DNA of 48,746 bases. It comes from Gammaproteobacteria bacterium. GTDB taxonomy: Bacteria; Pseudomonadota; Gammaproteobacteria; S012-40. The position numbers and the translations under genes are program-made. Shown here piece by piece: positions 17,733-26,775 of the stretch. The stretch spans positions 1 through 48,746 of the forward strand of contig JAOUJM010000010.1 of assembly GCA_029883265.1 (NCBI GenBank). The letters are read 5' to 3'. The first letter of the stretch is position 1; every line of letters starts with the position of its first letter. The notes beneath the pieces were generated by a model. That model was not told the DNA's origin and searched no databases. It was given only the letters and a program-made list of their open reading frames with translations.

Positions 17733-18782
17733 CTATTTTAATTTTTCCGAAACGCCTGCTTCAGCAAAAGTCGCCATATCATTGTGCGTTGCCAGTGCTA
17801 GGCGTATTAACGGCACCGCAGTCGCTGCACCACTACCTTCGCCCAAGCGCATATTCAAATTCAACAGTGGCTTTGCATCCAATGCTTGCACAATAATTTG
17901 ATGCCCAGGTTCGGCAGACGCATGTGAAAAAATCATCCAATCGCGCACCTCAGGATTAATTTTCACCGCAGCTAATGCCGCTGTACTACTGATAAAACCG
18001 TCCACAATAATAGGCAGTCCTACTTGCGCTGCTTTGATATAAGCGCCACATAATGCAGCTATTTCAAATCCACCTAGACAACGCAAACATGCCAGTGGTG
18101 ACGTTAATCGTGCTTTATTGTTGTGCAAACCTTTATCAATAACTTGCACCTTATGACGAACACCATCTTTATTTAGGCCCGTTCCAGGACCGGCTAACAT
18201 GGTGGCCGGACGTTTGAGCAATGCGCAGGCCATGGCACTCGCAGCGGTGGTGTTCGCAATACCCATTTCACCACCAATAAATGCATCAGCTTCATTGGCA
18301 ATCGCGCGCATAATTGCTTGTGCACCCTCTTCCATCGCTTGCTCTAATTGTTCGGTTGTCATGGCCGGGCCATGGACAAAATTTGCCGTGGCTGGCGCAA
18401 TAGATCGACTTAGTACGTTTTCATAAGTATCCACCGCTGCGACAGTTCCTAGATTTACGACTTCTAATGTAGCACCTATACTTTTCGCCAAAACGTTAAT
18501 CGCTGCCCCGCCTCGAGCAAAATTTTTCACCATTTCGGCAGTAACTGCTTGTGGAAATGCCGAAACGCCTTCATCCGCCACACCATGATCGCCAGCGAAA
18601 ACACTTATGTATATATTATGTAAATGTGGTTGAGTGGTAGCTTGCATCGCTGCCATTTGAATCGCAATTTGTTCCAAACGTCCGAGTGATCCGGGCGGCT
18701 TGGTCAGTTGTGATTGCTGCTCCACCGCTTTATCTCTAAATTCCGTACTTAATGAAGCAAGCTTTTCAGCTATCCAATTCAT
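17733..18782 (-). CDS. cobT: nicotinate-nucleotide-dimethylbenzimidazole phosphoribosyltransferase
   Basis: CobT makes alpha-ribazole phosphate, the lower-ligand precursor of cobalamin. From the ATG at 18782 (349 aa) it shows the family segments KPPGSLGRLEQIAIQMA (about 28-44), FAGDHGVADEGVSAFPQAVT, the GEMGIANTTAASAM motif and RLGEGSGAATAVPL near the C terminus, which holds the catalytic glutamate. The start overlaps the cobU stop as ATGA. Only cobU and cobT are here; cobS (synthase) and cobC (phosphatase) are not in the window. Confidence 0.97.
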   Translation of the reverse strand: MNWIAEKLASLSTEFRDKAVEQQSQLTKPPGSLGRLEQIAIQMAAMQATTQPHLHNIYISVFAGDHGVADEGVSAFPQAVTAEMVKNFARGGAAINVLAKSIGATLEVVNLGTVAAVDTYENVLSRSIAPATANFVHGPAMTTEQLEQAMEEGAQAIMRAIANEADAFIGGEMGIANTTAASAMACALLKRPATMLAGPGTGLNKDGVRHKVQVIDKGLHNNKARLTSPLACLRCLGGFEIAALCGAYIKAAQVGLPIIVDGFISSTAALAAVKINPEVRDWMIFSHASAEPGHQIIVQALDAKPLLNLNMRLGEGSGAATAVPLIRLALATHNDMATFAEAGVSEKLK

Positions 18783-19303
18783 GTAACATCCCCCTTCAAA
18801 ACCATTGGCAAACCTGCAACAACCATAATCACATCGTCGCATACCTGCGCCAATTGCTGATTAAGCTTACCCAAAAAATCACTATAGCGTCGACCGAGTG
18901 CATTCGTAGATACTAAGCTCATGCCGACTTCACTACTGACTAAAATTATATCTTGCTGCGTCGATTCAATAGTCCGACACAAATGTTCAATTTGTTGCTC
19001 AATTGTTTCTGGTTGTGCACATAACACATTGCTTAACCAGACACTGAGACAATCCACTAATAAACAATAGTGGGCTAATTCTGTTTGTGAAAAAACATCT
19101 ACTAAATTGATCGGTGTTTCTAACAATAGCCACTCATTCGGTCGACGTTGTTGATGACTTTGAATTCGTTGCGCCATTTCTTCGTCTTCAATCACGGCAG
19201 TCGCCACATAACAAACCGGTAAATGCCCTGCATGTGCCAACGCTTCCGCATAAGCACTCTTTCCTGAGCGAATTCCTCCCAAAATCAATCGTTTCCGCGC
19301 CAT
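18779..19303 (-). CDS. cobU: adenosylcobinamide kinase / adenosylcobinamide-phosphate guanylyltransferase
   Basis: CobU phosphorylates adenosylcobinamide and then transfers GMP to it, preparing the corrin side for joining to alpha-ribazole. The 174-aa form from the ATG at 19303 opens MARKRLILGGIRSGKSAYAE with the P loop GGIRSGKS, followed by QSHQQRRPNEW, where the guanylylated histidine is expected, and VSSEVGMSLVSTNALGRRYSD. A TTG seven codons upstream is an alternative start. It is translationally coupled to cobT and divergent from the ceramidase-like gene. No cobalamin riboswitch fits in the 78-base gap upstream. Confidence 0.95.
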   Translation of the reverse strand: MARKRLILGGIRSGKSAYAEALAHAGHLPVCYVATAVIEDEEMAQRIQSHQQRRPNEWLLLETPINLVDVFSQTELAHYCLLVDCLSVWLSNVLCAQPETIEQQIEHLCRTIESTQQDIILVSSEVGMSLVSTNALGRRYSDFLGKLNQQLAQVCDDVIMVVAGLPMVLKGDVT

Positions 19304-19381
19304 TTTCGCTATACTAGTTACCAATATCGATATCTTTGTGAAAAAGGCGTCTATTCTAGCAACTCTGGGATATAAAATACT

Positions 19382-20767: not shown

Positions 20768-21454
20768 TTAGATACTACACAGCACCAGCTTTTCTATATC
20801 AACTTTATTATCACTGACCAATTGCGCACTTACTTCTGCCTGAAGACTATCAAGAAAAACTACCTCAATACGATTTGCGCTTTGACCATTCTGCGTCATC
20901 CACCACTCACTGACTTGAATGGCTTGAAAACATTTAAGCGCTTTTTCTTCAACAAAGCGTTGGGTCAAATCACCATTGATGCGCCAATATTCTTTTACTT
21001 TGCCATTGCCTACCCGGCGATACACACCATCCCAGATGCTGACTTGCTCGCAATTGCTATACGCTTCAAATGTGGTGGCGCTGGCATTAGCTAAATTGGT
21101 TTCTTTAATAATCTGATTGTCTAGTTCATAGCGTACTCGAATCACTTCATCGGTATAAACATTGCCATCAATGACTTGCCAATTATTCACCGCATTGGGC
21201 CGTACACAAAAACCACCCGCACGAGTCACTTCGTACTCCATCGCAACACTATCCGCAAGTTTTAAAAACGTGGGGAAACGCAGGTCGCTGCTCATGTCCT
21301 GCCATAAGGTCAACCCGAGCGCAGCCAAAACTTCATCGTTAAGAATAACATCCTGATTTTCTGCGACTTGCTGAGGAGAATCCCATGCGGGTTTAAAGCA
21401 ACCGGTTAACGAATAGATCAGAATAAGACTAAAAAGTATATTGCTTAGCTTCAT
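20768..21454 (-). CDS. putative lipoprotein, unknown function
   Basis: The 228-aa protein has a lipoprotein signal peptide with lipobox LTGC (Cys19). The residue after the Cys is Phe, so outer-membrane sorting is expected under the usual rule. The mature part is soluble and mixed alpha/beta, with Cys residues near 82, 134, 175 and 226 that may form disulphides. I recognise no family. It converges with the ceramidase-like gene (12-base gap) and starts 124 bases downstream of the terminator of the cytochrome operon. Confidence 0.7.
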   Translation of the reverse strand: MKLSNILFSLILIYSLTGCFKPAWDSPQQVAENQDVILNDEVLAALGLTLWQDMSSDLRFPTFLKLADSVAMEYEVTRAGGFCVRPNAVNNWQVIDGNVYTDEVIRVRYELDNQIIKETNLANASATTFEAYSNCEQVSIWDGVYRRVGNGKVKEYWRINGDLTQRFVEEKALKCFQAIQVSEWWMTQNGQSANRIEVVFLDSLQAEVSAQLVSDNKVDIEKLVLCSI

Positions 21455-21577: not shown

Positions 21578-21608
21578 AAAAAAAAGCCAGCATAACGCTG
21601 GCTTTTTT
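21578..21608 (-). terminator. intrinsic terminator of the cytochrome operon
   Basis: The arms GCCAGC (21586-21591) and GCTGGC (21597-21602) enclose ATAAC. On the minus strand the stem is followed by eight T residues (21585-21578), 17 bases after the stop of the CHRD gene. A T6 on the plus side makes it symmetrical in form, but no plus-strand gene ends here. Confidence 0.9.
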
Positions 21609-21624
21609 GCACAAATATTACGCA

Positions 21625-22473
21625 CTAATGATGGGGCGCACCACCTTCACGGTGTAATGCCAAATCACCGGTTAATACGACTGAAGAATCCATGTGTACA
21701 TTCACATAAAAATCACCATTCACTAAGTCCATAATCTGCATATGAGTCAGAGGCGTGGCCGCGTCGGCTGTTTTATAAACTAAATCCGTTTCTGTACCAT
21801 CAACAGCTAAGCCTAATACTACCGCATCACCTGCATTTCGATTGTGAATATGCAAGCCAGTAATTTCAGCTTCGGTAATATCTTGCAGGCGAACATAAGC
21901 CACATAAGCGCCCTCATTGTTCATTAAGGTTAATACCGCTTGGCCACTCGCAGTGGACGCATTAGGCGTTAAATCCACGGTATAAATTCTTGCTTCTGCA
22001 CCCAAAATTTGGGCTCGCATTTCGTCGTTACCATTGCTATCGACAATATTGAGATAATATTCACCATGTTCAAACGCCTCTACTTCTTCATGAGTCAAGT
22101 TAACATTCTCACCCGCAGCAATAGTCCAGGTTTTATCACCATCATCATCTGAAAAATTAATCACTGCTGTGTCGCTTGTTTTCCCAGCAAAGGCTTTATA
22201 AATTGCTACGGTTGAAGCAGTACCGCTACTAATCGTAACGCTTCCACCAAGTGTCATTTCGTGATGGTCAATACTGAAATCAAACGCAGCCGCTAATCCA
22301 GATGCTGCACTCACGCCAGCCAATTCAGTTTCCTCAGCATTGACCTCTGCTTTAAAACTAATATTTTGATCGGCATCATCATGGTCATCGTCATCATCAT
22401 GATCCCCATGAAAACAAGCACTCAACGCAAACAGTGCGATTAAAGCCATTACACCCCAATTAAATTTCTTCAT
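21625..22473 (-). CDS. CHRD-domain lipoprotein with His/Asp-rich N terminus
   Basis: The 282-aa protein has lipobox LSAC (Cys20), then a His/Asp cluster (HGDHDDDDDHDDAD, about 22-35) likely to bind metal, and two CHRD domains (about 40-150 and 160-275). Each ends in the family-typical pattern of Gly-x-Tyr/Phe-Tyr-x-Asn-hydrophobic (HGEYYLNI and NGDFYVNVH). CHRD domains are extracellular and of unclear role. GAGGAT lies before the ATG. It is the last gene of the cytochrome operon, 39 bases after the cytochrome-barrel gene, and the terminator follows, so it probably serves the same process at the cell surface. Confidence 0.88.
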   Translation of the reverse strand: MKKFNWGVMALIALFALSACFHGDHDDDDDHDDADQNISFKAEVNAEETELAGVSAASGLAAAFDFSIDHHEMTLGGSVTISSGTASTVAIYKAFAGKTSDTAVINFSDDDGDKTWTIAAGENVNLTHEEVEAFEHGEYYLNIVDSNGNDEMRAQILGAEARIYTVDLTPNASTASGQAVLTLMNNEGAYVAYVRLQDITEAEITGLHIHNRNAGDAVVLGLAVDGTETDLVYKTADAATPLTHMQIMDLVNGDFYVNVHMDSSVVLTGDLALHREGGAPHH

Positions 22474-22512
22474 TTCAAGATCCTCATTGTTTTTTTACTA
22501 CACTAGTTAAAA

Positions 22513-23808
22513 TTAAAACATAAATCTTATTCGCGCCGTAGCATGACTACCAAAACCACTGATCGCCGTTTCTCCGGCATGACCATGCGCATGACCGTCC
22601 GCCGATGGCTCAGCTGCAGCCATGAGTTCCGCTACATACGCAAACGTCACTTTAATATTTTGCACCGGTTTATAAATCCAGGCTGCCGTAACTTGAGTTT
22701 CCACAGAATCAGAACCCACACCATGATCTGTCGTATCAAAACGCAAAATACCTGCAAGTGTTTTCGCAATAGCATAATCCGCTTGCATGGTAATACCCAT
22801 GCGTGAGTAACGATCATCGTTACCGGTATTATCCAAACTCACCTGTCCACGCAAATCGAGTTTTTTGAAACGTAAATTTGCAGCAAGCGAATACATCTGC
22901 AACTCCTGAGAGCCATTAGCATTATACCAAAGCAAAGACATTGAACTGTCCTTAAGAAAATCAAAACGCCCCACCACCCAATAATCGAGTTTGTCTGCAC
23001 CCGTGGCATGATGTGTTTCAGTGGTTACACCGTGAGCTTCATTTGCAGGCAAACTACTATGCGCTTGGAGGTCACCATGATCATCACCATGGGCAGAGCT
23101 GCCGTTACTTAAACCCACAGACCAGAACAAGGCCTTATTATAACCATAATATTCAATTCCATTTTGCTCATCAAAACCGATACCTACCGGCGTGAAACCA
23201 CTTCCACCGCCATGATGTCCGCCTCCATAGGCACCAATACCGGAACTTGCTGAATCCAATGCAGCGCCGTGACCATAAAACGAAGTCCAAGTGGTTGGAT
23301 CAAGTGAACCCGCTCGCGCATTGAACCATGTAGAGTCAAAAAAGTTTGTACGACTAATAAAAAACCGATGTAACTCCACCGTTTCATCGTTGATTTCCAC
23401 ACCCGCCCAGACCGCAAAGTCTTTGCTCACACTTGTGGTTGCCAACAGACTAATATCTTTTTGGGCAATTAAAGCTGGATACGCATCGTCACTATTACTG
23501 CTCATTAATTCAGTACCACCAGTGACACTAAGAATCTCTGACACTTTCTTCACAATCTCGTCAGAATCTTTAAGCGCTTCATCATCCAAACCAAATGCAA
23601 GGTCGTCTGCTTGCTTACGCATTTGAAAACCATTTCGCATAAAACGTTCGCCCTTCATGGTCAGACGCGGAAATGATGCCGTATGACATTTATTGCAACT
23701 GGCGCCAGTTGATCGAGCAAAAGCAGCTGTCGCATCTGCTTGCTTTGGTAACAAACTGAAACTGATACTCATCATGAGCACACTAACTAAAAAACTGATT
23801 CGATACAC
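22513..23808 (-). CDS. monohaem cytochrome c fused to an outer-membrane beta barrel (Cyc2-like architecture)
   Basis: After a signal peptide (about 1-27), the mature 431-aa protein opens with a single c-type haem site (Cys38, Cys41, His42 in ASCNKCHTASFPRL), followed by the GERFMRNGFQM segment. The rest is strand-rich with alternating aromatic residues and ends in ARIRFMF, a barrel-assembly C terminus. Established: this arrangement of a short haem domain plugging a porin is that of Cyc2, the outer-membrane Fe(II) oxidase, and related proteins; similarity of the haem motif and the length fit, but substrate specificity cannot be inferred. Gly/His-rich loops (GGGHHGGGSGF; HGDDHGDLQAH; DGHAHGHAGE) could bind metal. 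AGGGGG lies nine bases upstream of the ATG. Confidence 0.82.
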   Translation of the reverse strand: MYRISFLVSVLMMSISFSLLPKQADATAAFARSTGASCNKCHTASFPRLTMKGERFMRNGFQMRKQADDLAFGLDDEALKDSDEIVKKVSEILSVTGGTELMSSNSDDAYPALIAQKDISLLATTSVSKDFAVWAGVEINDETVELHRFFISRTNFFDSTWFNARAGSLDPTTWTSFYGHGAALDSASSGIGAYGGGHHGGGSGFTPVGIGFDEQNGIEYYGYNKALFWSVGLSNGSSAHGDDHGDLQAHSSLPANEAHGVTTETHHATGADKLDYWVVGRFDFLKDSSMSLLWYNANGSQELQMYSLAANLRFKKLDLRGQVSLDNTGNDDRYSRMGITMQADYAIAKTLAGILRFDTTDHGVGSDSVETQVTAAWIYKPVQNIKVTFAYVAELMAAAEPSADGHAHGHAGETAISGFGSHATARIRFMF

Positions 23809-23817
23809 ATCATCCCC

Positions 23818-24771
23818 CTAATCTATAGTTTTAATCTTATAATCCGCTGTCGAACCATCTAGGCTCATTCGACGCGCAAACGATACATAGTGAAATCGCC
23901 CTTCAGCATAATCATCATGAATAGCAAAACCCATGTAAAAATTTTTCAATTGGTTTAACTTTTTTGTTGGTGCAAGCGACGTTTGCAACGGACGAACGAA
24001 AACCAACGTATTATCACCGGTTTGCTGTGAATACGACACATCAACCACGGCAGATTTATGAGCATGGCGCTTTTCCAAAATATAACCACTGACGACTTTT
24101 GTTTCATTCGCTGCCAATTGTGCTTGCCAATATTCAACAAAATAATTCTTGATCAACAAGTCATTCAATTCATTTGACGAAATCAAGTCATCGCCGCCGC
24201 CACTACGTTTTAATTTGATCCGTGATTTAGACAAATACAGTTCGCGTGTTTTATTCTCACTAAATGCCATACCGGTAGCATCGCTATGACAGAATCCCCA
24301 ACAACCCGCGACCGGCACTTCTTTCACTTCCTCACTTGAAAGCATAACAGCAACTTTGGCCTTAAATTGTTGATCCACTTTTTTTCCACTAGTAAAACCG
24401 AGCGCATCCCATTTAACTTGCACATACAGATTGTGATCATCTTGCACAGCTTTTATGATTGCTTTAACGGTTCCAGGTTTATTATCAATGGTATTTGGTT
24501 CAAGATAACCACCTTTTACGATTAAATCGCCCATGGCTTTTTCTTCACCCTCATGACATTCCAAACAAGGCGAGCCTTTGCGTACACTTTTTGCACCTTT
24601 GTGTTTGGTTAAAACCCATTCCCAAGACGCCTGACCTGGATAGAACAAGTCGATCGGCATTGCCTTAACCTTTTCCCAATCAATTTCTTTGGCACTAACA
24701 GGTAATGCAACAATCAATAACATTCCTAATGTTGAACAAACTATTCTAAAAATCCAACTGGATCTCTTCAT
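23818..24771 (-). CDS. ethylbenzene-dehydrogenase-related haem protein with CxxCH and CxxxCH motifs
   Basis: The start is the ATG at 24771, six bases after AGGAGG; an ATG two codons earlier abuts the ribosome-binding site. The 317-aa protein has a signal peptide (about 1-28) and a haem c site CLECH (69-73). A domain of the EB_dh type follows (DDHNLYVQVKWD near 111-122 and RFHYVSFARRM near the end), which in relatives binds haem b. A second cysteine motif, CWGFCH (157-162), has three instead of two intervening residues. It is periplasmic, and overlaps the tetrahaem gene by 26 bases. The likely role is a periplasmic electron carrier between the NapC-type protein and the outer-membrane cytochrome. 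Whether CxxxCH carries haem is open. Confidence 0.82.
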   Translation of the reverse strand: MKRSSWIFRIVCSTLGMLLIVALPVSAKEIDWEKVKAMPIDLFYPGQASWEWVLTKHKGAKSVRKGSPCLECHEGEEKAMGDLIVKGGYLEPNTIDNKPGTVKAIIKAVQDDHNLYVQVKWDALGFTSGKKVDQQFKAKVAVMLSSEEVKEVPVAGCWGFCHSDATGMAFSENKTRELYLSKSRIKLKRSGGGDDLISSNELNDLLIKNYFVEYWQAQLAANETKVVSGYILEKRHAHKSAVVDVSYSQQTGDNTLVFVRPLQTSLAPTKKLNQLKNFYMGFAIHDDYAEGRFHYVSFARRMSLDGSTADYKIKTID

Positions 24772-25318
24772 CAGCATCCTCCTGCTTTAATTCGGTTTCA
24801 TGCACGGCCTTATGGGCAATACCCTTATGACAATCAATGCAAGTATCACCATCTTGCTGTGCTTGATTATGCTGTTTGCCCGCACGTTTACGTTGCTCAC
24901 TAATAATCATTGCGGAAAAGTCGTGACAATTACGACATTCCCGTGAATTGTTTGCCTGCATATTTTCCCAAACTCGTTCGGCCATAATTTTGCGGCGGGC
25001 CTCAAATTTTTCTTCCGTATCAATAGTGCCTAATAAATGATGATAAACATCTTTCACCGCTAATAATTTCCTCCATAAAGTTGTTGTCCAGTCATGAGGA
25101 ATATGACAATCAGCACAGCCAGCCCGAACACCACTGGTATTTTGGTAATGCCGGGTTTTTTTGTATTCTTCATAGACGGTAGTTCGCATTTCATGGCAGG
25201 AAATACAAAATTCAGTTTGACTGGAATATTGAACTAAGGAACCCAACACAATAGATAGGATCACTGCAAACAGCGTAAGCAGTAACACAGCAAGAGACAA
25301 TAAATAACGTGGTTTCAT
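24746..25318 (-). CDS. NapC/NirT-type membrane-anchored tetrahaem cytochrome c (quinol dehydrogenase)
   Basis: The 190-aa protein has one N-terminal membrane helix (about 5-30) and four CxxCH haem sites at 38-42, 68-72, 128-132 and 160-164, the size and spacing of NapC/NirT/CymA proteins. These oxidise menaquinol or ubiquinol and pass electrons to periplasmic partners, or run the reverse way. I used the ATG at 25318; a TTG codon precedes it directly. It is the first gene of the four-gene operon, behind a promoter about 130 bases upstream. The C-terminal tail (170-190) is acidic. No terminal reductase such as NapAB is adjacent. Confidence 0.93.
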   Translation of the reverse strand: MKPRYLLSLAVLLLTLFAVILSIVLGSLVQYSSQTEFCISCHEMRTTVYEEYKKTRHYQNTSGVRAGCADCHIPHDWTTTLWRKLLAVKDVYHHLLGTIDTEEKFEARRKIMAERVWENMQANNSRECRNCHDFSAMIISEQRKRAGKQHNQAQQDGDTCIDCHKGIAHKAVHETELKQEDADEEIQLDF

Positions 25319-25448
25319 CAACTGACAACAAGCTCATGATGACGCAGTTGATAGACATGCGACAATTTGCCGCAACCCGCGACTCGTCGAAAATTCACAA
25401 ACATTTAACCCCTACCCCTATGCACGTTTGTTTTTTTAGTGCGTAATT

Positions 25449-25477
25449 ATTAATAACTTAGCAAGCCATGACGTCAA
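25449..25477 (-). promoter_or_regulatory. candidate sigma70 promoter of the cytochrome operon
   Basis: On the minus strand TTGACG (25477-25472) is followed after 17 bases by ATTAAT (25454-25449), about 130 bases before the first cytochrome gene. The -35 element sits inside the dyad at 25464-25492, an arrangement that suggests control by a bound regulator. Confidence 0.45.
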
Positions 25478-25492
25478 CATTGAGTCATGGCT
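25464..25492. repeat. 29-base dyad overlapping the -35 of the cytochrome operon
   Basis: AGCCATGAC (25464-25472) and GTCATGGCT (25484-25492) are perfect inverted arms. The interior adds TCAA/TTGA pairing with one unpaired G on the left side. It lies 104 bases downstream of the flgE stop and overlaps the predicted -35. It may be an operator, or an imperfect terminator of flgE without a T-run. Confidence 0.6.
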
Positions 25493-25596
25493 AATATCGC
25501 TATTGTAATAAATTTTGGTTTTTTTAGCTATAAGACAAAGACGTTAGAAAAGCTTGTCCTGAAAGGATTTAAACACAATATGAAATTCCAAATAAA

Positions 25597-26775
25597 TTAT
25601 GCTTTGATGTTTATTAACGATCCCATCATCTCATCTGCGGCTTGTAATACTTTTACATTTGCTTCGATGTCATATTGTGAGAGTTTCATATCAATCAGTT
25701 GATCCTGCAAGGACACATTGGATTCTTCGAGTGATCCAGCGTTGATCTGCCCAAGATTACCCGTTCCTGGTGCAGCGGTAAAAGCATCTCCTGATCCATA
25801 GGTCGCGGCGTAGGTATTGTCACCCAGTTTTCCTAAACCTTGTGGATTAGAAAAATCAGCTAGCGCAACCTGACCAATCACTTGGCTTTCACCATTAGCT
25901 GCTAAACTACTGACAACGCCATTTTGGTCGATTTGAATTTGTCTGTTTTGTCCTGCACTCTGACCATTTTGCTTAATTTCATTTAAGGAAAAATCACTGG
26001 CGTAACGCGTTGCATCGCTCAGGTCTAAACTAATATTCATGTTGTCCGCGCCAGTACCAGGATCAAAAGCAGGTATGTTGATCTCACCACCCATTGGTGA
26101 AATCAGACCACCGCTCGTTGAAAATTCAATAGCGGTTGGGGCTAGCACTTGCTTGCCACCAATATAGGCCATTGCTTCCATTTGGTTACTGCCTGTTGTC
26201 TCACGAAAATAAATATCTGCTTGATGGCTCACACCCAAGCTATCGACTACATCCATAGAAATTCGGTTGTTGTAACTAGATGCGTCGGAGGGATCAAAAC
26301 TTGTGGTTGGCACTGAATTGTTTGCATTAAAATTTGCGTTAATTGAAACTTCAGTTGTAGCAGAGGGTTGCAACTGATCAGACGATAAACGCAGATCTTT
26401 TACTGAGCCATCAATAATTCCATTTTCATTTGCATTAAATCCTGTTAAACGTTGTCCACGACTATTGCTAACATAACCATCGGAATCAATTTGAAACTGT
26501 CCATCGCGTGAATAAACAGTTTCACCATGATCGTTTAAACGAAAAAAACCATTGCCTTGAATACTTAAATCAGTACTATTGCCTGTGGTCTGGTTAAGGC
26601 CCTGAGATGGCTGCTCAGCGACCCGTGCGACTTTTACACCACCACCCGCTGATTCAACTGTTTCAGTTCGTGATTGCTTAAATCCTGTAGTCGAACTATT
26701 TGCTATATTGTTTGCAGTTGTACGCAAACGGGAAAAACCAGCATTAATTCCTGTTTGAGCAATGGTTAGCGGCAT
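25597..26775 (-). CDS. flgE: flagellar hook protein FlgE
   Basis: FlgE polymerises into the flagellar hook. The 392-aa form from the ATG at 26775 gives MPLTIAQTGINAGFSRLRT, with GAGG upstream. It has the rod/hook N-terminal motif ANNIANSSTTGFKQSRTE (about 20-37), LSIQGNGFFRL, a variable central domain and the C-terminal helix (SLQDQLIDMKLSQYDIEANV, then KVLQAADEMM). The length fits FlgE rather than FlgF or FlgG. No other flagellar gene lies in the window, so it is separated from its usual operon. It could be a second or specialised hook-like protein. Confidence 0.82.
   Translation of the reverse strand: MPLTIAQTGINAGFSRLRTTANNIANSSTTGFKQSRTETVESAGGGVKVARVAEQPSQGLNQTTGNSTDLSIQGNGFFRLNDHGETVYSRDGQFQIDSDGYVSNSRGQRLTGFNANENGIIDGSVKDLRLSSDQLQPSATTEVSINANFNANNSVPTTSFDPSDASSYNNRISMDVVDSLGVSHQADIYFRETTGSNQMEAMAYIGGKQVLAPTAIEFSTSGGLISPMGGEINIPAFDPGTGADNMNISLDLSDATRYASDFSLNEIKQNGQSAGQNRQIQIDQNGVVSSLAANGESQVIGQVALADFSNPQGLGKLGDNTYAATYGSGDAFTAAPGTGNLGQINAGSLEESNVSLQDQLIDMKLSQYDIEANVKVLQAADEMMGSLINIKA

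Follow-up and report, generated by a model that had tools for sequence, protein, structure and literature searches.

A NirTB-type module encoded with a Cyc2-like porin in a gammaproteobacterial operon

The window analyzed here is a stretch of 48,746 nucleotides (positions 1 to 48,746 of contig JAOUJM010000010.1, assembly GCA_029883265.1, from a gammaproteobacterium; genome G000 in our set) that carries, on its minus strand, a short operon for a NapC/NirT-type cytochrome, a cytochrome of the EB_dh fold, a Cyc2-like barrel protein and a CHRD lipoprotein. A preliminary description of the DNA had proposed that the four together could move electrons between the quinone pool and the cell surface. 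All four open reading frames (ORFs) that it named are present, and they are given below with the features that bound them, proteins being measured in amino acids (aa).

24746..25321, minus strand: NapC/NirT-type inner-membrane tetraheme cytochrome, 191 aa; PF03264 (E 1e-66); four CXXCH motifs
23818..24777, minus strand: periplasmic cytochrome of the EB_dh fold, NirB-like and probably diheme, 319 aa; PF09459 (E 2e-21); conserved; fold matches 2ivf_C and 7b04_C
22513..23808, minus strand: Cyc2-like monoheme cytochrome fused to a predicted 16-strand porin, 431 aa, GTG start; no Pfam match
21625..22473, minus strand: CHRD lipoprotein with an Asp/His-rich N-terminus, 282 aa; PF07452 in two stretches (E 2e-15); optional, window-specific member of the operon
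21580..21608, minus strand: intrinsic terminator made of a perfect 12-bp inverted repeat, a 5-base loop and a T-run; folding z −3.7
25322..25596, minus strand: upstream gap of 275 bp, the place for any promoter of the operon's own

The operon and its conservation

The NapC and EB_dh genes overlap, 9 bases separate the EB_dh gene from the barrel gene, and 39 bases separate the barrel gene from the CHRD gene; for the NapC gene, the ATG at 25318 is a likelier start than the annotated one. The terminator claimed previously was confirmed as the inverted repeat with its T-run, although a simple terminator scan did not list it, probably since the stem takes in the T-run. The operon's own promoter, also claimed, is unproved: no sigma-70-like match was found in the upstream gap, a result that does not exclude a promoter there.

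The order NapC–EB_dh–barrel was found in five genomes from four families, namely the window's own and G003 (locus L017, in the same family as the window), G319 (L048), G287 (L049) and G190 (L050), all four loci carrying the NapC gene, with barrel identities to the window protein of 49, 46, 45 and 35%, respectively. As the three genes are kept in these four other genomes at 35–65% identity, chance ORFs are ruled out for them. Among 369 sampled genomes of the class, a NapC–EB_dh pair lies directly upstream of every full-length member of the barrel clade (window, G287, G319 and G190), and the EB_dh and barrel trees agree in pairing the window with G003 and in setting G190 apart. Scanning the genome contigs for the barrel returned one locus (L016), which was not counted apart from G319, and a tblastn search of plasmids gave weak matches only.

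The expected co-occurrence of all four families therefore held for NapC, EB_dh and the barrel, in fixed order in all five genomes with the barrel clade, but not for CHRD. In G003, G319, G287 and G190 alike, the operon has no CHRD gene after it, and the CHRD domains of G319 and G287 sit at other places in these genomes, with some 50 kb to the nearest one in G287; consequently, CHRD was rejected as a conserved fourth component and the unit is taken to comprise three genes, not four. Direct reading of the window's CHRD sequence reveals a lipobox, LSAC, and an Asp/His-rich stretch, HGDHDDDDDHDD; the protein contains no heme motif, and a search of solved structures with it gave no useful match. We take it as an optional component of the cell envelope that is specific to this lineage.

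Three of the other genomes show local peculiarities. A transposase-like ORF (unscanned) lies in G287 on the 5′ side of the NapC gene, on the opposite strand (L049:10055–10810), and may have altered the upstream region of that operon. The G190 barrel gene is followed, after 12 bases, by genes for a response regulator and for what looks like its sensor kinase (L050:11028–13093), and this pair is a possible regulator of the operon. In G033, a barrel remnant is found between a UvrB-like gene and a response regulator gene (L091; contig C72, near 80419–80706), with no match to NapC or EB_dh left at the locus; the whole operon has been lost from this genome. The window's operon is itself flanked by a FlgE-like flagellar gene upstream (stop at 25597) and a putative lipoprotein gene (20768–21454) on the other side; nearby cobalamin synthesis genes (a PF02277 phosphoribosyltransferase and a CobU-like ORF, 17733–19324) are apparently unrelated to it.

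The three conserved proteins

The first protein has the makeup of the NapC/NirT family, with a PF03264 domain, an N-terminal membrane segment and four CXXCH motifs, and the NCBIfam TorC/NapC/NirT models match it below cut-off. A role as partner of the Nap nitrate reductase was considered and rejected, as both G000 and G003 have another NapC gene after NapA/NapB-like genes (read from the sequence, not scanned). The second protein carries two motifs.

24553..24567, minus strand: CX2CH heme motif of the EB_dh protein, residues 71–75; invariant in 13 full proteins
24286..24303, minus strand: CX3CH motif of the EB_dh protein, residues 159–164; invariant in 13 full proteins; candidate second covalent heme site

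Both motifs occur in all 35 homologous EB_dh domains listed. They probably represent the two heme sites of NirB, one of them of the rare CX3CH type, where heme attachment is predicted from the motif. The AlphaFold2 model of the protein has a predicted local distance difference test score (pLDDT) of 81, and in both sequence and fold the protein matches the gamma subunit of ethylbenzene dehydrogenase (2ivf_C) and subunit C of nitrite oxidoreductase (7b04_C).

The barrel protein bears a single heme motif and three long predicted outer loops.

23683..23697, minus strand: single CXXCH of the barrel protein, residues 38–42; invariant in the five operon barrels
23167..23301, minus strand: predicted outer loop 5-6, residues 170–214, 3 His; low-confidence part of the model
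22990..23103, minus strand: predicted outer loop 7-8, residues 236–273, His-rich with 6 His; low-confidence part of the model
22546..22620, minus strand: predicted outer loop 15-16, residues 397–421, 3 His; low-confidence part of the model

Modeling with AlphaFold2 predicted a membrane barrel of 16 strands (pLDDT 62, predicted template modeling score 0.65), as had been anticipated, and Foldseek retrieved 16-strand porins (OmpU, OmpF, OmpC) with this model. The three long loops are placed outside because the N-terminus is taken as periplasmic and short and long turns alternate; 13 of the 16 His residues then fall in predicted outer loops. His-rich barrels are confined to the window and G003 (13 His), the other three operon barrels having 2–4 His.

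The preliminary description had set Cyc2 apart as a different design, and this has to be corrected, as the operon barrel is itself Cyc2-like in profile match, motif plan and fold. Its N-terminal segment, ATAAFARSTGASCNKCHTASFPRL, presents FAR.T, the only CXXCH of the N-terminal domain, and PXL four residues after it (CNKCHTASFPRL), followed by the predicted porin; with 16 strands and 431 aa, the protein also has the size of Cyc2 (at least 365 aa). Profile comparison with ten Cyc2 homologues of other genomes gave a match of 99.9% (E 3e-31) over most of the length. The published Cyc2 signature upstream of CXXCH, AXPXFAR[Q/K][T/Y] (PMC8406198), is not matched in full: the window protein reads ATAAFARST, with A for P and S for Q/K, FAR and T being kept. 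The P is replaced by A or G in three of the five operon barrels, and some other Cyc2 homologues also depart from the signature, at T/Y. As its Q/K is replaced, we call the barrel Cyc2-like and do not file it as Cyc2. In a small tree, the five operon barrels form one clade (100/100) separate from eleven Cyc2 homologues; judged by sequence, the barrel stands apart within the Cyc2 superfamily, on a distant branch of its own. The window's own genome encodes a second Cyc2 homologue (contig C199, L121:8015–9334), ASPLYSRQYQMSCLACH, which has the canonical ...SRQY motif, falls outside the operon-barrel clade and adjoins two uncharacterized exported-looking proteins of 597 and 626 aa.

Partners of homologous modules

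An EB_dh protein as the periplasmic step was part of the combination that the preliminary description did not know as a described system. The NapC–EB_dh pair is conserved; it corresponds to NirT and NirB of nitrite respiration and also occurs beside MtrAB. The genes for tetraheme NirT and diheme NirB lie immediately downstream of nirS, a fused NirTB exists, and nitrite reduction requires NirT (PMC13086519). In Pseudomonas stutzeri RCH2, Psest_0817, annotated as 'Ethylbenzene dehydrogenase', has a fitness profile in common with nirS and nirF and is two locus numbers from nirS (Psest_0815) (PMC5554334); because of this position, Psest_0817 is probably NirB. The window's operon likewise has a NapC/NirT tetraheme gene adjacent to a NirB-like EB_dh gene, NirB being equated with the EB_dh gene by inference from position in the two studies (PMC5554334, PMC13086519), but the pair is not beside nirS, as the window contains no nirS.

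NapC–EB_dh homologues stand beside NirS in 18 loci (L053–L062, L064–L066, L100 and L102–L105), and in 16 of them the EB_dh and NapC domains are fused in one protein of about 560–990 aa. No full NirS gene lies directly beside the module at L063, L098, L099 or L106, which should not be counted as nir-linked. At two loci (L057:7345–10314 and L061:7696–10461), NapC and two consecutive EB_dh domains form one protein of 920–990 aa beside nirS; within each of the two proteins, the EB_dh domains are more closely related to one another than to any others, which suggests recent and independent duplications. Other homologues have different neighbors. In G049, G341 and G720, the EB_dh type occurs beside a decaheme cytochrome and an MtrB/PioB barrel (PF11854, E 2e-92 to 6e-143), the decaheme MtrA-like and MtrB/PioB genes adjoining the EB_dh genes at L052, L067 and L097; in the open-access literature, we found no description of an EB_dh step in MtrAB-type conduits under that name. 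In G722 and G629, it stands beside a diheme cytochrome and a flavocytochrome c sulfide dehydrogenase-like gene (L096:7573–11262 and L101:5840–9492; the G722 protein was scanned, and the G629 gene assigned from gene order and resemblance). As a consequence of these latter neighbors, the module may also receive electrons, from sulfide.

The EB_dh tree places the five proteins of the Cyc2-like operons in one clade (98), apart from the main nir-linked set and inside a set (99) whose only other members are two proteins linked to MtrAB and one encoded at the end of a contig; the remaining MtrAB-linked protein (L067) forms a long branch with an unsure placement. A conduit branch and a nitrite-reductase branch therefore seem to exist. 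The NapC tree is poorly resolved.

The preliminary description had seen no terminal reductase at the operon, and our analyses agree in finding no linked terminal enzyme. Apart from a weak propeller match in G000, no NirS (PF02239) was detected in the five carriers, and MtrB/PioB (PF11854) is absent from them; NirS and MtrAB were therefore rejected as unlinked partners. Nor is the operon itself an MtrAB conduit, with a decaheme MtrA/DmsE protein and MtrB/PioB, as NapC is its sole multiheme gene. With the known partners missing from the carriers, the linked barrel is the obvious partner.

A candidate conduit and its relation to known systems

From the computed families, heme motifs, predicted barrel, conserved gene order and exchange of partners between homologous modules, we conclude, with a probability of about 0.7, that the products of the first three genes make up an electron conduit in which a NirTB-type quinol module is re-wired to a Cyc2-like porin. 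At the inner membrane, the NapC/NirT protein, with its four hemes, would take electrons from the quinone pool or deliver them to it; the NirB-like EB_dh cytochrome, with one or two hemes c and perhaps a heme b, would act as the periplasmic carrier; and the monoheme plug at the periplasmic mouth of the 16-strand barrel would pass electrons to, or take them from, a soluble substrate entering the pore from outside. Contact between the three proteins and electron exchange with the outside would both be needed in such a chain, and a dissolved metal seems the likeliest substrate, given the kinship to Cyc2 and the His-rich outer loops of the window barrel. The route from quinone pool to cell surface that had been envisaged is thereby retained as a predicted exchange, in either direction, for three genes in fixed order with a modeled porin, and is given up for CHRD.

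Export from quinol is weakly favored within this conduit reading, on account of the function of NirT and of the precedent of ImoA, a NirT-like protein shown to oxidize quinol (PMC9600427). Uptake, for example by oxidation of Fe(II), is somewhat less probable and is favored by the oxidation of external Fe(II) by Cyc2 (PMC8406198) and the presence of RuBisCO in all five carriers. A more specific proposal, a minimal and hitherto undescribed extracellular respiration chain in which quinol is oxidized by a soluble external acceptor via three proteins and six or seven hemes, is tentative, and we rate it below even odds.

Several observations weigh against the three-protein conduit or against the favored direction. 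The operon was found in five genomes only, and G033, a sister species of G287 in the same genus, retains only a broken barrel remnant with internal stops. The barrel model reaches a pLDDT of only 62 and was built without heme, and all five operon barrels have S, A or L in place of the Q/K of the Cyc2 signature. Because the membrane is too wide to be crossed by way of a single heme, the substrate has to come into the pore. The direction of flow is unsettled by RuBisCO, found in 5/5 carriers against 174/369 genomes of the class sample (0.47 to the fifth power is about 0.02, a figure that assumes independent genomes, which these are not), and the flavocytochrome c neighbors hint that the module can receive electrons.

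In one alternative explanation, the barrel belongs to an outer-membrane metal-handling reductase: a metal bound by the His-rich loops and CHRD would be reduced with electrons from quinol, the purpose being acquisition or detoxification of the metal rather than respiration that conserves energy. The location of most of the window barrel's His residues in predicted outer loops and the Asp/His-rich lipoprotein encoded next in the operon would suit this role, but only two of the five barrels are His-rich, CHRD is not conserved, and no metal transporter was recognized beside the window's operon; we consider it unlikely. Hardly different in our estimate is a chain without any outer-membrane crossing, where the EB_dh protein would deliver electrons to a periplasmic enzyme encoded elsewhere, much as NirTB does for NirS, and the barrel would be an ordinary substrate pore or a sensor whose heme is structural. 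NirTB-type modules do mostly serve a periplasmic enzyme, a periplasmic chain could terminate in a single heme at the barrel's inner mouth, and the barrel model is of low confidence. Yet the barrel, with its invariant CXXCH, always comes with the NapC–EB_dh pair, searches revealed neither NirS nor a linked terminal enzyme, MtrAB conduits are the neighbors of related EB_dh proteins, and Cyc2 itself oxidizes external iron (PMC8406198).

The original proposal, that all four genes form one functional conduit with CHRD as a surface redox or docking partner, draws on the position of the CHRD gene on the same strand, just past the barrel gene and ahead of the terminator. The four other operons without a following CHRD gene, the CHRD domains located elsewhere in G319 and G287, and the absence of a heme motif from the protein make it very improbable. 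The three-protein conduit is accordingly preferred.

If the minimal export chain proposed above is real, Cyc2-like porins would act not only as iron oxidases but also as outlets for electrons, and NirTB would be a general plug-in that serves outer-membrane conduits in addition to nitrite reductase. The NirTB of denitrification, the MtrAB conduits and the Cyc2-type porins appear to have one inner-membrane/periplasmic module in common. A working conduit of this kind would give cells access to electron donors or acceptors outside by means of three small proteins, without a multiheme wire across the outer membrane, and would be simple enough for transfer into laboratory hosts. A Cyc2-like match need not mean iron oxidation; here, a quinol module of its own accompanies it, and the direction in which electrons flow is directly testable. 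No description of a NirTB-type module combined with a Cyc2-like porin was found in open-access full texts, subscription journals being outside the scope of the search.

Among known systems, the operon resembles the NirT–NirB module in having a NapC/NirT tetraheme protein followed by an EB_dh-fold cytochrome with CX2CH and CX3CH motifs, but the operon and its carriers lack nirS, the next gene encodes a Cyc2-like porin, and its EB_dh protein groups with MtrAB-linked proteins. Ethylbenzene dehydrogenase gamma (2IVF) and nitrite oxidoreductase subunit C (7B04) share the fold and Pfam domain of this protein, whereas in the operon there are no adjacent molybdenum enzyme subunits and the EB_dh protein has CX2CH and CX3CH and pairs with NapC. 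The MtrAB, MtoAB and PioAB conduits with CymA or ImoA likewise combine an inner-membrane NapC-family protein, a periplasmic heme protein and an outer-membrane barrel, and clusters of decaheme, MtrB/PioB and NapC/NirT genes with 'another c-type cytochrome' have been described in Ferrovaceae (2026; PMC13390463); the operon, in contrast, has neither the decaheme protein nor the 26-strand MtrB, and one heme in the barrel protein. With Cyc2 (Keffer et al. 2021, PMC8406198), the barrel shares the N-terminal CXXCH with FAR.T just upstream, PXL and the 16-strand porin, but it forms a separate clade, is encoded in one operon with NapC and EB_dh genes and, in the window and G003, has His-rich outer loops. 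Each part of the operon belongs to a known family; what appears new is that a NirTB-type module is joined to a Cyc2-like porin, which makes the operon a variant of known electron conduits.

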